From assembly GCF_000515255.1 (NCBI RefSeq), contig NZ_KI911559.1, positions 1,940,824-2,004,823 of the forward strand: DNA of 64,000 nt. Reading direction: 5' to 3'. The notes under the pieces are model-generated. The model was given only the letters and a program-made list of their open reading frames with translations. It ran no database searches and was not told where the DNA came from. Positions within the stretch are counted from its first letter, which is position 1; the number at the start of each line of letters is the position of its first letter. The stretch is from Rhodovibrio salinarum DSM 9154 (GTDB lineage Bacteria; Pseudomonadota; Alphaproteobacteria; Kiloniellales; Rhodovibrionaceae). This document shows, one piece after another, positions 1,198 through 20,212 of this stretch. The position numbers and the translations under genes are program-made.

Positions 1198-1551
1198 TTA
1201 CCGGCGGCCGGTCGGCGTGGAACTGGTGCTGCCTGCCTTGCCATAGGCACGCACGGCCGTCTTGCGTGCGCCGTGCTGTTTCAGTTCCGCGCTGAGGCCG
1301 TCGAGGCGTCCGCGCATCGTCCCGCTGATGCGATCGAGCGCGTCGGTAAGGTCCTGCAGGCGGGGCAGGTAGGTCCGTGCGCTTTCCCGCGGCAGGGCGG
1401 CGATGTCCGTGCAGATATTCTGGATGCCGGTTTCCAGCTCGGTGGCGTCCTGCTCGTGGCCTGCTGCCAAGGCGTTTTCGATCCCGCGCGCCTCGGCGAG
1501 CAGGTCGTCCAGGCGCGTGTCGATCGCGCTGTCAGTCGAGCTGGCGGTCAT
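1198..1551 (-). CDS. Small helical protein of the flagellar cluster, function unknown
   Basis: The 117-residue product has no motif that I recognise. It is rich in Ala, Leu, Glu and Arg and looks mostly helical (about residues 10-95), with a basic, Ser/Thr-rich tail. Its ATG at 1551 overlaps the stop of the preceding FlhB-like gene by 4 bases, and fliO follows 27 bases later, so it very probably belongs to the flagellar transcript. A FliT-like or other chaperone role would suit the size and position, but that is inference only. The same frame stays open further upstream, but that part is shadow of the FlhB-like gene; the 4-base overlap decides the start. Confidence 0.6.
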   Translation of the reverse strand: MTASSTDSAIDTRLDDLLAEARGIENALAAGHEQDATELETGIQNICTDIAALPRESARTYLPRLQDLTDALDRISGTMRGRLDGLSAELKQHGARKTAVRAYGKAGSTSSTPTGRR

Positions 1552-1928
1552 CGGGGGTCCTCGTCGTTTCTCGGGTCGTCGTCGCTTGGCTCTGGGCCGC
1601 TGGCGCCAGCCTGCGGCGGTGCGGCCGGATCCGGCACGGCCTCGCCGTTGGCCCGGTAGATGTAGGTCAGGATTTCCGCCACGGCGGCGTAGGCCGCGTA
1701 GGGGATTTCCCGGTCCAGCTCGGCGGCGCGCAGCACCTCCGCAAGATCGGCGTCGGTGCGCACCTTGACCCCGCGGTCGAAGGCCACCCGCAGGATCTGC
1801 TCGGCCAGCGCGCCTTCGCCCTTGGCGGTCACCGTCGGCGCATCCCGGCGTTCGGGGTCCCACTGCAGGGCAACGGCGACCTGGCGGCGCCGTCGTCCGT
1901 CGCTGCTGTCGTCGCTGTCGCCGGTCAT
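1548..1928 (-). CDS. Stand-alone FlhB C-terminal-domain protein
   Basis: The 126-residue protein resembles the cytoplasmic C-terminal half of FlhB, the export switch protein, without its membrane part. Residues about 16-95 carry the pattern AVALQWDPERRDAPTVTAKG, then AEQILRVAFDRGVKV and REIPYAAYAAVAEILTYIYR, matching the FlhB end region. At the place where FlhB has its NPTH self-cleavage motif this protein has Trp-Asp-Pro-Glu, so it should not self-cleave. Such FlhX/FhlB-like proteins accompany flagellar clusters in several bacteria and can partly replace the FlhB C domain. A full flhB is present 4 kb away on the plus strand. It starts the minus-strand flagellar run leading to fliP. Confidence 0.8.
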   Translation of the reverse strand: MTGDSDDSSDGRRRRQVAVALQWDPERRDAPTVTAKGEGALAEQILRVAFDRGVKVRTDADLAEVLRAAELDREIPYAAYAAVAEILTYIYRANGEAVPDPAAPPQAGASGPEPSDDDPRNDEDPR

Positions 1929-2166
1929 GGTCTGCGCCTAGCCGCTGGTAGGGAGGGCGCCGGCCGGGGGTGCCGACGCCGTCGAGCAGGAGACTGCGGG
2001 AATCGTGTTTAACGCGGCGTAAACGGCGTTAACGAATTCGCGCCGATCGGAAGATGTCTGCACTCCGGTGCAGGTTATTGCCCTGCGCGGGCGATCTACC
2101 TAGCTATTCTGACGGAAGGCCCGTGTATCGGCCTTGCCGTGGTTCCAACCGATCGAGCGCACACCC

Positions 2167-2334
2167 ATGAGCGAGCAACCCGGATTCACGGTCGAAGCGG
2201 CGCACGCACGCGATAAGGAAAAGACGACCGTCTACCCGCCGATGCCGGTTGCGGAGACGCCGGAGTACGAGACGCTGCGCGCGCGGGCGCTGCAGGCAAC
2301 GCAGGAAACGCGAGGCAACCTTGGCGACGCATGA
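2167..2334 (+). CDS. Small acidic/basic protein upstream of a Doc-like gene, possible partner
   Basis: A 55-residue reading frame beginning ATGAGCGAGCAACC. No known fold or antitoxin motif (Phd, AbrB, RHH) is visible. It is highly charged, and its middle contains a Pro-rich stretch (VYPPMPVAETPEY). Its last 14 bases overlap the proposed TTG start of the Doc-like gene, the arrangement expected of a coupled two-gene unit such as an antitoxin-toxin pair. An in-frame upstream start at 2134 would add 11 residues. The gene is short and unsupported by homology, so it may not be real. Confidence 0.4.
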   Translation: MSEQPGFTVEAAHARDKEKTTVYPPMPVAETPEYETLRARALQATQETRGNLGDA

Positions 2335-2755
2335 GGCGACCTTCACGCCCGGCGGCGAGCCGCACTGGCTGCCGCCGGAGCAACTGACCCAGTTGAATGC
2401 CGAGGCGCTGGGCGAGGGTGCGCAGGGCCCGAAACTGGCCGACCTGAGCGGGGTCGAGCGTGCTCTGCAACGTCCGCGTCAGCTCTACAGTTATCATGAC
2501 GAGCGCGACGTCGTGCGGCTGGCCTGCGCGATCCTGGTCGGCCTCATCGAGGAAAAGCCGTTCGCCCAGCACAACCTAGGGACCGGCGTGGCCGCGTTGA
2601 TGCTGTTCCTGGAGGTTAACGGCTACCGCTGGGCCGGTCCGGACGGGCCCGTACTGGCCGCGTATGTGCGGGCGCTTGCGGACGGCCGCTACACCGAAGA
2701 GGGCCTGGCCGAGACCCTGCGCCCGGACATTTATCCGCTGCAAACCGCGGCTTGA
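2321..2755 (+). CDS. Doc/Fic-family protein with degenerate active-site motif
   Basis: From TTG 2321 the product has 144 residues and follows the layout of the death-on-curing (Doc) branch of the Fic family. It has WLPPEQLTQLNAEAL near the start, then GVERALQRPRQLYSYHDERDVVRLACAILVGLIEEKPF and LFLEVNGYRW. Doc proteins phosphorylate EF-Tu and Fic proteins AMP-ylate targets through an H-P-F-x-D/E-G-N-K-R-T type motif. Here the equivalent segment (residues 79-88) reads KPFAQHNLGT: the catalytic His is Lys, and Gly-Asn-Lys-Arg is His-Asn-Leu-Gly. Catalysis by the usual route is therefore unlikely. The start is uncertain: the frame is open to 2249, but a GAGG sequence sits just before the TTG. It overlaps the 55-residue gene upstream. 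Confidence 0.7.
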   Translation: MATHEATFTPGGEPHWLPPEQLTQLNAEALGEGAQGPKLADLSGVERALQRPRQLYSYHDERDVVRLACAILVGLIEEKPFAQHNLGTGVAALMLFLEVNGYRWAGPDGPVLAAYVRALADGRYTEEGLAETLRPDIYPLQTAA

Positions 2756-3146: not shown

Positions 3147-3344
3147 CCGGGCACATCTTCTCCTAAGGTGGCCGCCGACCGCAGCCTCGGGACGGTTCCC
3201 CGTAGCCGCCGGCTCGGCGCAATTTAGCCGGCTTTACCGCTTCTTAACAAGCAGACTGCGAAGGTTCGCCTACGCGCAGACCCGGTACGCGCCGTGTCGG
3301 GGCCGCCGCGTGCTGAGGACAGGTTAACGAAGGTCGGCAGCGAC

Positions 3345-3752
3345 ATGGGTGTGCAGAACTTCACGGTATTCGACGCGTTGCAGCGCAAGATGGGCTGGCT
3401 CAGCCAGCGCCAGGGTGTGCTGGCGGACAACATCGCCAACGCCGACACGCCGGGCTACAAGCCGCGCGACGTGAAGGAAGCCCCGTTCCAGCGGGTGATC
3501 GAGCGGATGCTGAAGCCGATGGCCCCGCGCGTCACCCACGAGGGGCATGTCGATGCGTCGATCCCCGGTGAGCCGCGTTTGGACGTCGACGAGGCGAAAG
3601 AGAAGTACGAGACCTCGCCGGTTGGCAACGCGGTCGTGCTGGAAGAACAGCTGGTCAAGGTGTCCGAGACTCAGATGGACTACCAGACCATGACCAATCT
3701 CTACAAAAAGCACATGGGTATGTTCCGCATCGCGCTCGGCCGGGGCCAGTAG
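3345..3752 (+). CDS. flgB: Flagellar proximal rod protein FlgB
   Basis: FlgB forms part of the proximal rod of the basal body. The 135-residue protein has the rod-family N-terminal helix with LADNIANADTPGYKPRDV (about residues 24-45) and a C-terminal helical segment with the MTNLYKKHMGMFRIALGR pattern, matching FlgB in length and order. The ATG at 3345 is preferred because the protein then begins MGVQNFTVFDALQ as other FlgB proteins do; an in-frame start at 3294 adds 17 residues that do not look coding. It opens the plus-strand run flgB-flgC-fliE-fliQ-fliR-flhB. Confidence 0.96.
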   Translation: MGVQNFTVFDALQRKMGWLSQRQGVLADNIANADTPGYKPRDVKEAPFQRVIERMLKPMAPRVTHEGHVDASIPGEPRLDVDEAKEKYETSPVGNAVVLEEQLVKVSETQMDYQTMTNLYKKHMGMFRIALGRGQ

Positions 3753-3805
3753 GCCGCCGCGCGCCGCAATAGACCCTGATGCGCCAGAGCGCAGGACGCC
3801 AGACG

Positions 3806-4213
3806 ATGGATCTCTCCAAGGTTCTGCATATCTCCGCCGCCGGCATGAAGGCACAGGGCGTGCGTCTGCGCGTGCTGTCGGAGAACGTTGCGAACGCCGA
3901 TTCCGTGGCGCGGACGCCCGACGGCGAGCCGTACCGACGCAAGCTCGTCACCTTCGCCAACGAGGTGAACAAGGAGCTCGGCATCAACCAGGTGAAGATC
4001 GACCAGATCGAGCCCGATCCGAGCGAGTTCGGCCAGGAATACCGGCCCGGCCACCCGGCGGCCAACGAGGAAGGCTACATCCAGACGCCGAACGTCAACA
4101 GCTTGATCGAGATGTCCGACATGCGCGAGGCCCAGCGCAGCTACGAGGCCAACCTGAAGGTCATCGAGAGTTCCCGCACGATGTTATCACGTACGATCGA
4201 TCTGCTGCGCTAA
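3806..4213 (+). CDS. flgC: Flagellar proximal rod protein FlgC
   Basis: FlgC is a proximal rod subunit of the flagellar basal body. The 135-residue product carries the rod signature at the N-terminus (AAGMKAQGVRLRVLSENVANADS, near residues 11-33) and the classic C-terminal helix with SLIEMSDMREAQRSYEANLKVIE. Start ATG 3806 gives the standard MDLSKVLHISAAGM beginning. It lies 53 bases after flgB and about 120 bases before fliE. Confidence 0.96.
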   Translation: MDLSKVLHISAAGMKAQGVRLRVLSENVANADSVARTPDGEPYRRKLVTFANEVNKELGINQVKIDQIEPDPSEFGQEYRPGHPAANEEGYIQTPNVNSLIEMSDMREAQRSYEANLKVIESSRTMLSRTIDLLR

Positions 4214-4334
4214 TCCGCTGACTTTGCATCATCCTGGTGGCCAGGAAGGCTGCCGCCTGAAGGGTCATCGCCGCGCTCTAGGCAAGGCACGCCTTTGCGC
4301 CCGCGGCGCTTAACGAAGAGAGAGACCGGTTCCG

Positions 4335-4649
4335 ATGTCCGTGTCCTATAGCGAGGCGCTCGCCGCCTACAAGCGGGTCGCCGAACAGGCCAAGGTTCAG
4401 CCGTCCAAGTCCGAGGGAACGGAGGCGATCACCAGCGATTTTGCGCAGATGCTGCGCAGCGCGGGCGAGGACGCGATCCAGGATCTCAAGGGCGGCGAGC
4501 GGATGTCGCTGGCCGCGGCCGCCGGCAAGGCGGACATCAACGACGTCGTGATGGCGATGTCGCAGGCCGAGCGCACGCTGCAGACCGTCGTGACCCTGCG
4601 CGACAAGGCCGTGCAGGCCTATCAGCAGATCATGCGCATGCCGATCTGA
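4335..4649 (+). CDS. fliE: Flagellar hook-basal body protein FliE
   Basis: FliE links the MS ring to the rod. The 104-residue protein ends in the family pattern DINDVVMAMSQAERTLQTVVTLRDKAVQAYQQIMRMPI (about residues 66-104), the conserved FliE C-terminus. An AAGAGAGAG sequence about 8-16 bases before ATG 4335 serves as ribosome binding site. The genes on either side are flgC and fliQ, the usual order in this class. Confidence 0.96.
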   Translation: MSVSYSEALAAYKRVAEQAKVQPSKSEGTEAITSDFAQMLRSAGEDAIQDLKGGERMSLAAAAGKADINDVVMAMSQAERTLQTVVTLRDKAVQAYQQIMRMPI

Positions 4650-4757
4650 GGCGCCCTGAGACCTCAAGCGACCAAGCCCTCAACTTAACCGGGCCCGCGC
4701 GATCGGCTGCCGCCGAGCGAATCGACGCGGGCTTCTTTCGAAGCTGGATTGTTAACC

Positions 4758-5024
4758 ATGAATCAGACCGAGGTCATCGAGGTCGGCCGCGAGGCGGTCT
4801 ACGTCATGCTCAAGGTATCCAGCCCGATCCTGCTGGCCGCGCTGGGAATCGGCATGGTGATCGCGCTGTTCCAGGCGCTGACCCAGATGCAGGAGATGAC
4901 GCTCACCTTCGTGCCCAAGATCCTGGTCGTCATGGTCGCGCTGATCGTCTTGGCGCCGTTCATGCTGAACGCGCTGTCGGCGTTCACGCTGGAGCTGACG
5001 GACAAGATCATCGCGGGCGGCTAA
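4758..5024 (+). CDS. fliQ: Flagellar export gate protein FliQ
   Basis: FliQ is a small two-helix subunit of the flagellar export gate. The 88-residue product has two hydrophobic helices (about residues 14-40 and 50-72) separated by a short loop with QALTQMQEMTLTFVPKI, diagnostic of FliQ/SctS. ATG 4758 is chosen over an in-frame TTG three codons upstream because it gives the standard MNQTEVIEVGREA start. fliR begins about 20 bases after the stop. Confidence 0.96.
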   Translation: MNQTEVIEVGREAVYVMLKVSSPILLAALGIGMVIALFQALTQMQEMTLTFVPKILVVMVALIVLAPFMLNALSAFTLELTDKIIAGG

Positions 5025-5044
5025 GACCTAAAGGCGCCGCGCCC

Positions 5045-5803
5045 GTGCTCCAGGAACTGCTGCCCGCCACGCTGTTTTCGGTGCTGCTCGTCTTCGTGCG
5101 CGTCGGCGCGGCGCTGTCGACCCTGCCGGGGTTCGGTGAGTCCTACGTCAGTCCGCGTGCCCGGATGATCCTGGCGCTCGCGGTATCGTTGCTGGTGACG
5201 CCGCTGGTCCAGGACACGCTGCCGGGCGAGCCGGACCAGGTGAGTGTGCTGCTGGCCTTGATGGCTGGCGAGCTGTTCATCGGCCTGTTCATCGGCACGC
5301 TGGCGCGGGTGTTCATGTCGGCCCTGGTCACCGGCGGCATGGTGATGGCCTACATGTCGAGCCAGGCCAACGCCTTGGTGAACGACCCGGCCAGCCAGCA
5401 GCAGGGATCGATCATCGGCGCGTTCCTCAATATCACCGCGTTGGTGGCGATCTTCGGGCTCAATATCCATCACATCATGCTGGCGGCGGTGGTGGATAGC
5501 TACGTGGTGTTTCCGGTCGGAGTGGCGCCGCCGGTGGCCGACTTCGCCCAGTTGATGAGCCAGACGGTGGCCCGTTCCTTTCTGATCGCGATGAAGCTGG
5601 CCGCCCCCTTCGTGGTTGCCGGTTTGGTTCTTTTCCTCGGGGTCGGTCTGCTGTCGCGTCTGATGCCACAGGTGCAGATCTTTTTCGCCACCATGCCCTT
5701 GCAGATCATCAAGGGGATCTGGCTGCTGATGATCTCCCTGCCGGCCATAATCAGTTACTTCACGGGCCAGTTCGCCGACCTGTTCATGGTCTTTCAGCAA
5801 TAG
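5045..5803 (+). CDS. fliR: Flagellar export gate protein FliR
   Basis: FliR is the single-copy gate subunit of the flagellar type III secretion channel. The 252-residue protein begins at a GTG and contains six to seven hydrophobic segments. It has the FliR patterns FVRVGAALSTLPGFGESYVSPRARM (about 18-42) and GELFIGLFIGTLARVF. It sits between fliQ and flhB with short spacers, so FliQ, FliR and FlhB are probably made from one transcript. Confidence 0.96.
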   Translation: MLQELLPATLFSVLLVFVRVGAALSTLPGFGESYVSPRARMILALAVSLLVTPLVQDTLPGEPDQVSVLLALMAGELFIGLFIGTLARVFMSALVTGGMVMAYMSSQANALVNDPASQQQGSIIGAFLNITALVAIFGLNIHHIMLAAVVDSYVVFPVGVAPPVADFAQLMSQTVARSFLIAMKLAAPFVVAGLVLFLGVGLLSRLMPQVQIFFATMPLQIIKGIWLLMISLPAIISYFTGQFADLFMVFQQ

Positions 5804-5815
5804 GGGAGGGGCGGC

Positions 5816-6901
5816 GTGTCCGACGACCAAACGGATAAGAGCCAAAAGACAGAAGACCCGACCCCGAAAAAGCTGGAGGAAGCCCGCAAGAAAGGGCAGG
5901 TCGCCAAGTCGCAGGAGGTCAACCACTGGTTCATCATCCTCGGCCTTGGTCTGATCCTGACCATCATGGCGCCCGCGATGGCGAGCGGCGTCAGCGACAC
6001 ATTGCGCCGCTTTCTGGCCAAAGCCGCTCTGCTGCCCACCGGCGGTGGGCTTGGTCCAGTTCTGACCGACACCATGATCGACATGCTATGGGTGCTGCTG
6101 TTGCCCATGGGCCTTCTGATGATCGCAGCCGTCGCGGCGAATTTCGTCCAGATCGGGTTTCTGGTCAGCGTGGAGAGCCTGAAGCCTAAACCGGAAAAGA
6201 TTTCGCCGATTAAGGGCGCCAAACGGCTGTTTTCCACCCGCGCCCTGGTCGATTTTGCCAAGGGCATCGCCAAGTTGACCTTGGTCGGCTTGGTCGCTTT
6301 TCTGGTGATCTGGCCGGAGCACGACACCCTGCCGCAGCTGATCGAGATCGGAATGACGGCGCAGCTTGAGGTGCTGCGGGTCTACGCGCTCAAGGTCACA
6401 GGCGCGGTGTTGGCGGTGATGACCGTGATCGCGGCGCTGGACGTCGCCTACCAGCGCTACAAGCACCACGAAGAGATGAAGATGTCCAAGCAGGAGGTGA
6501 AGGACGAGTTCAAGCAGTCCGAGGGCGACCCGCAGGTCAAGCAGCGCTTGCGTCAGCTGCGCATGGAGAAGTCGCGCAAGCGCATGATGGCCGCTGTGCC
6601 GCAGGCCGACGTGGTGGTCACCAACCCGACGCACTACGCCATTGCCCTGTCCTATAGCCACGGCGAAATGGCGGCGCCCAGGGTTGTGGCGAAGGGGGTC
6701 GACGAGGTCGCCCGGCGCATCCGCGAAGTGGCCGAGGCGAACGATGTGCCGCTGGTCGAGAACCCGCCGCTTGCCCGCGCGCTGCATGCCAGCGTGGAAC
6801 TGGATCAGGAGATCCCGGCGGAGCACTACAAAGCGGTTGCCGAGATTATCGGCTATGTGATGCGCCTGAAGGGCCGCATGCCAGCAACCGCGGGGCGCTA
6901 A
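5816..6901 (+). CDS. flhB: Flagellar export switch protein FlhB
   Basis: FlhB sets the substrate specificity of the flagellar export apparatus. The 361-residue protein starts with a charged leader containing EDPTPKKLEEARKKGQVAKS, has four membrane helices (about residues 32-210), and ends in a cytoplasmic domain with the self-cleavage motif Asn270-Pro271-Thr272-His273, intact here. Starts at GTG 5816, 12 bases after fliR. It is the last flagellar gene of this run; the cckA kinase gene follows on the same strand. Confidence 0.98.
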   Translation: MSDDQTDKSQKTEDPTPKKLEEARKKGQVAKSQEVNHWFIILGLGLILTIMAPAMASGVSDTLRRFLAKAALLPTGGGLGPVLTDTMIDMLWVLLLPMGLLMIAAVAANFVQIGFLVSVESLKPKPEKISPIKGAKRLFSTRALVDFAKGIAKLTLVGLVAFLVIWPEHDTLPQLIEIGMTAQLEVLRVYALKVTGAVLAVMTVIAALDVAYQRYKHHEEMKMSKQEVKDEFKQSEGDPQVKQRLRQLRMEKSRKRMMAAVPQADVVVTNPTHYAIALSYSHGEMAAPRVVAKGVDEVARRIREVAEANDVPLVENPPLARALHASVELDQEIPAEHYKAVAEIIGYVMRLKGRMPATAGR

Positions 6902-7040
6902 GGCGGTGCGGAAGCTGGATGCGTCTTGCCGGGCAAGAAGCCCTTTGCACCATCCCCGGTTCAGCGCGACTGTGAGGCGGCACGGCGTTCGGAGGTGTGT
7001 GGGATTGGGTGGGCGAACCGTTCTGAGGAGAGGCCGGCTC

Positions 7041-20081: not shown

Positions 20082-20212
20082 CGCTGGGCCCCTTCATGAT
20101 CTGGGACAGTCCGTCCCGGACGCCATTCGACGGCAAACGGCTTAAGAACCGGTTACCGGTTGCCTGCGCGCCGGCGAAAGTCGATAGAACTGTCAGAAGG
20201 AGCGATACGCGT

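Follow-up and report, generated by a model that had tools for sequence, protein, structure and literature searches.

What could maintain a two-gene unit resembling a Doc toxin-antitoxin module, with the toxin's catalytic motif replaced, amid the flagellar genes of Rhodovibrio salinarum? The original prediction, made on the 64,000-nucleotide stretch of DNA analyzed here (the window), had described a 55-codon frame overlapping a Doc-like gene and had offered a new activity, a regulatory pseudo-enzyme or decay as explanations. The open reading frames of the window bear out this arrangement, with the two frames sharing 14 nt (Table 1). The proposed kinship with the Doc branch, originally aligned by eye, is likewise recovered by profile searches: the Doc-like protein matches PHROG 577 'Doc-like toxin' (E 1e-12) and, under their respective cut-offs, NCBIfam TIGR01550 DOC_P1 (E 5e-8; curated cut-off) and Pfam Fic (E 9e-4), while P1 Doc itself is hit by sequence (3k33, E 0.002). 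The AlphaFold2 model is a helical Doc fold (mean pLDDT 88.9, pTM 0.85), whose best solved-structure matches in Foldseek are all P1 Doc (3dd7, 3kh2, 3k33; TM 0.84-0.86 normalised to Doc, 24% identity). It is compact and does not display the upper-lobe domain inserted in the beta-hairpin that is a trait of AvrB. PADLOC returned no match. Judged by sequence, predicted fold and tree (see below), the 144-aa protein is a member of the Doc branch of the Fic/Doc (Fido) family, and it shares with Doc of the P1 Phd-Doc system (3dd7/3k33) a single-domain architecture of ~125-145 aa and, in the same operon, a small partner gene upstream.

Table 1. Coordinates of the features of the Doc-like pair and its surroundings (window positions unless a locus is named)
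Feature	Position	Strand	Remarks
CtrA-like box TTAACGCGGCGTAAA	2009-2023		between divergent fliO-side genes and the pair
Promoter-like element TTGCCC-N17-TAGCTA	2078-2106	+	common to all four species
55-aa partner gene	2167-2334	+	55 codons, ATG..TGA
Doc-like gene	2321-2755	+	TTG start, 144 aa, 14-nt overlap with partner gene
Degenerate active-site loop KPFAQHNLGT, replacing HPFxDGNKRT	2555-2584	+	altered in all four orthologues
Frozen C-terminal region, residues 100-136, NGYRWxGPDGxVLxAYVxALAxGRYTEEGLAETxRPD	2618-2728	+	31/37 invariant, 4 species
Flanking CtrA-like boxes	window 2009-2023, 3233-3247; L031 4684, 5973; L033 6366, 7791; L034 3770, 8128		

The active-site reading KPFAQHNLGT was located as predicted. 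The further expectation of a consistently altered loop stands in that every orthologue is changed and falls in that there is no one fixed new motif: the loops of the four orthologues read KPFAQHNLGT, KPFAQHNLGT, RPFARGNLST and RPFAARNRAT, such that neither the Lys (K/K/R/R at the position of the catalytic His) nor HNLG (two of four loops) is conserved across genomes, and the sole common replacement is that of His by a basic residue. The catalytic motif HPFx[D/E]GNKR is found in none of them and the GNKR loop is lost in all four. Among 62 other Docs, chosen by whole-length homology and not by motif, the His is kept in 60, and all 62 agree with GNKR at three or more of its four positions; Docs from viral contigs, which were used in the structure alignment, were left out of these counts because they had been fetched with a motif-based pattern. 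With four altered loops against a near-universal motif, this clade has lost three elements of the site at once, namely the general base, the Asp that binds metal and the phosphate-binding Lys/Arg. From the motif, we predict that kinase activity on EF-Tu is absent; a new transfer chemistry is not supported, since the loops present no new consensus beyond the basic residue at the His position.

These loops bear directly on the possibility of a live toxin-antitoxin module, i.e., a Doc-like toxin with altered or residual chemistry, using Lys/Arg for His and restrained by the small protein as its antitoxin. Such a module would account for the overlapping small-then-toxin gene order and for the basic residue that all four species have in place of His, and substituted relatives are on record: Doc groups with His-to-Gln and Asp-to-Asn changes have been described from sequence (PMC4454073), where the motif His or Asp is substituted clade-wide as in the Rhodovibrio proteins, and the degenerate Fic2 of C. 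fetus is toxic (PMC5651007). However, the His-substituted Doc clade D2 retains the NKR loop (Qx[FY]x[DE][GV]NKR), whereas in the Rhodovibrio proteins neither half of the site survives, since the Asp that binds metal and the phosphate-binding GNKR loop have gone as well and nothing common to the four takes their place; Fic2, for its part, has kept its His, and toxicity is gone without it (PMC5651007). The absence of an antitoxin with a DNA-binding domain and the vertical inheritance at a housekeeping locus, which is not a mobile pattern, also count against a live module, and we deem it unlikely. A Fido fold minus the conserved motif residues is seen in AvrB (PMC2686095), which acts by peptide binding; unlike the Rhodovibrio protein, AvrB is a secreted plant-cell effector with an extra domain that still binds ADP, and the two have no sequence-level relation.

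Selection on the pair was gauged by comparing the window with Rhodovibrio sodomensis (Nei-Gojobori), which gave dN/dS values of 0.091 for the Doc-like gene and 0.114 for the partner, alongside 0.092, 0.074 and 0.118 for the neighbors csrA, flgB and fliR. Deeper comparisons gave 0.51-0.58 for the partner, i.e., less constraint, these being near saturation and hence less informative. A decaying, functionless toxin gene would explain the variation of the loop among orthologues, but it is hard to reconcile with a Doc-like dN/dS of about 0.09, the lack of any stop or frameshift in the four species, the conserved promoter-like element and a near-invariant C-terminal third; with the pair kept at the same locus in four species, we reject decay, which we hold to be barely credible. 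The pair is, on these substitution patterns, kept by purifying selection. Within the clade, the loop is invariant at only 5 of 12 positions, as against 31 of 37 in the C-terminal residues 100-136, and canonical Docs show the reverse, with a mean majority frequency of 0.83 in the loop and 0.53 in the C-terminal region (the latter figure is approximate, as many rows were shortened by local alignment). Constraint has thus shifted from the catalytic loop to the C-terminal third. With the catalytic positions relaxed and the C-terminal third almost frozen, the pseudo-enzyme is the one of the three original options that fits best.

The flagellar and csrA neighborhood noted in the original prediction recurs throughout: in all four species, the pair sits between the fliP/fliO genes and csrA-flgB-flgC-fliE-fliQ-fliR-flhB, and the Doc-like gene is always accompanied by the small gene. 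The nearest homologue is from Rhodovibrio sodomensis DSM 9895 (90%), followed by one from a Rhodovibrio MAG (63%) and one from G002, another genome of the Rhodovibrionaceae (58%); flgB is close to these values in the same species (95/63/55%). In G002, sugar-related genes are inserted between fliO and the pair, which is still linked to csrA and flgB; this insert (L034, about 3500-6950) holds one dTDP-sugar epimerase-like gene and, by eye, one glycosyltransferase-like gene. Beside fliO in the window lies a gene for a 126-aa FlhB C-terminal domain homologue (1548-1928, minus strand), which is fast-evolving relative to its neighbors (dN/dS 0.46). Close relatives with a normal motif at the flagellar locus, which would have pointed to a simply decayed copy, were looked for and not found. 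Sampling at the ranks of order, class and phylum yielded no further orthologue; it included 385 class genomes in a single-protein search and 367 class plus 329 phylum genomes in a clade-profile search (these samples overlap), and the pair is known from four species. Since no orthologue was seen elsewhere in the sampled genomes and the tblastn matches listed for plasmids do not exceed 36% identity, a horizontal or plasmid source was rejected.

The distribution of other Docs in these genomes bears on a decoy function, wherein the inert Doc-like protein or its partner would bind and dampen the antitoxins or toxins of genuine Doc modules. Although G002 does possess an intact Doc (HPFVDGNKRT) elsewhere in its genome, no second close Doc was found in G000 and G001, just more distant Fic/Doc-type proteins, and the partner is unlike AbrB-type antitoxin tails, which leaves the decoy highly unlikely. 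One Fic/Doc-type protein of G000, distinct from the flagellar-locus pair (G000:C1:38249-38497, L126), has the motif HPFHDANKRT in an open frame of 298 aa.

In a tree built with the motif columns removed, the four orthologues are monophyletic (support 100/99), the stem leading to them is long (1.3 changes per column), and their sister is the motif-intact Doc of G049 (HPFEQGNKRT; support 98/94). The canonical alphaproteobacterial Docs that we retrieved mostly have an AbrB/MazE-type antitoxin upstream, the tail of which adjoins the start of Doc. Such MazE/AbrB-Doc modules (composite TasA-TasB type, PMC1626090) share with the Rhodovibrio pair the antitoxin-then-Doc order and abutting or overlapping frames, but the latter lacks an AbrB domain and has its motif destroyed. 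Closer in form are the Docs of G049 and G016, whose short AbrB-less partners (60 and 48 aa) lack the DNA-binding domain and overlap the Doc frame; in contrast to the Rhodovibrio pair, they are away from flagellar genes, their motif is intact where readable (the G016 contig ends before it), and the tails of their partners fit the profile of antitoxin tails (p 0.008 and 0.0004, respectively). Another reduced antitoxin type might be represented by the short, Pro-rich upstream partners (..LPPRPAKP..), apparently without an AbrB domain, of the intact Docs (HGFVDGNKR) at L053 and L058 (G375, G294).

The 55-aa partner itself is conserved in the four species (87/54/51%), with the motifs AAHA-x-D-x-x-K, Y-x-P-x-P and L-R-x3-L-x-A-T-x3-R-x2-L in the alignment, and its model, of low confidence (pLDDT 68), predicts helices at 9-18 and 34-53. 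It matches nothing in Pfam, NCBIfam or PHROG, and profile searches, together with its mere 55 aa and two short helices in that model, point to the absence of a Phd or AbrB DNA-binding domain. A by-eye likeness to antitoxin tails was rejected when shuffle tests against the canonical antitoxin-tail profile gave no significant similarity (p 0.25-0.67); when it was compared pairwise with the short partners that accompany intact relatives, the results were unconvincing and inconsistent (best p 0.02 of nine). These results leave some room, doubtful as it is, for the small protein being an unrelated new flagellar-locus protein, linked to the Doc-like protein only operonically, a scenario compatible with our main reading of the latter. 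Against it stand the position and overlap, which are those of antitoxins 5' of Doc, the similarly short partners of the sister-type Docs with their antitoxin-like tails, and the pairing in 4/4 species; outside the family, only weak profile matches occur in the class, which we take for chance because none of the nine loci with known surroundings adjoins a Doc gene. With the tail test not significant and the pairwise tests unconvincing, we take the partner, from its position and the sister lineage, to be a putative reduced antitoxin.

Upstream of the partner start, by 36-64 nt, all four species feature TTGnnn-N17-TAGCTW with an exact 17-base spacer, a pattern that was picked after inspection and that composition shuffles yield in 0.03-0.2% of such stretches; a scan with the E. 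coli promoter consensus did not report it. In each of the four species, the csrA-flgB region and the fliO-side operon are flanked by CtrA-like boxes (TTAA-N7-TTAA with one mismatch), and the window holds three such sites, two of them flanking this region, against 0.9 expected by chance. The box next to the pair probably serves the minus-strand fliO-side flagellar genes; it was dropped as the pair's promoter because the G002 box stays with the fliO operon and the G002 pair has none. The third box, TTAAGAACCGGTTAC, lies at window 20142-20156. In the gap between the pair and csrA, a structured RNA or terminator was rejected (z -0.49, unconserved inverted repeat, no Rfam match).

A motif lost in four species, in a pair that selection has nonetheless kept at one locus, looks like the mark of a recruited toxin pair, and we consider it probable that a Doc toxin-antitoxin pair was disarmed and put to new use (exapted) as a protein-binding complex without catalytic activity. 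We posit that a chromosomal Doc-type pair would have been fixed in the flagellar cluster of the Rhodovibrionaceae ancestor, and that the kinase center was then lost, with His going to Lys/Arg and the loop Asp, Gly, Lys and Arg being replaced, while the fold of Doc and the helical protein co-translated with it may have been retained as a constitutive two-protein complex. In such a complex, the Doc-like protein would perform no phosphoryl transfer, the partner might occupy the Doc groove and complete the fold in the manner of Phd, and the conserved C-terminal face could dock some cellular protein. The P1 system supplies the analogy: two core helices of the Fic fold are missing from Doc and come from Phd, and the H66Y mutant is non-toxic and still binds Phd (PMC2686095), while the C-terminal peptide of Phd is by itself enough to bind Doc and inhibit it (PMC9207808). 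The Rhodovibrio pair looks like a natural counterpart of this, a Doc without its base plus a short partner of two predicted helices. It differs from Phd-Doc in the replaced catalytic His, Asp, Gly, Lys and Arg, in a partner without a DNA-binding domain or detectable Phd similarity, and in its fixed locus among flagellar genes; because the partner has no significant similarity to Doc antitoxins, its binding role is proposed from position only.

Any role in flagellar or CsrA regulation is a tentative guess from location, and the more specific proposal that the pair is devoted to regulating flagellar assembly or CsrA without catalysis, with pseudo-kinase and partner docking via the frozen C-terminal face, strikes us as somewhat unlikely. 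Pseudo-enzymes are well known among kinases. In the open literature that we searched, they are seldom described for the Doc branch, and we found no report of a Doc that has lost both halves of its active site and is kept with its partner in a flagellar locus. The disarmed and exapted pair would represent a traceable case of a toxin-antitoxin module that gives up its chemistry while selection on it persists, with the stages visible in an intact sister whose antitoxin lacks the DNA-binding domain, a disarmed clade and a constraint moved off the active site. As such, it may lend itself to testing, on a small scale, how addiction modules turn into housekeeping parts.
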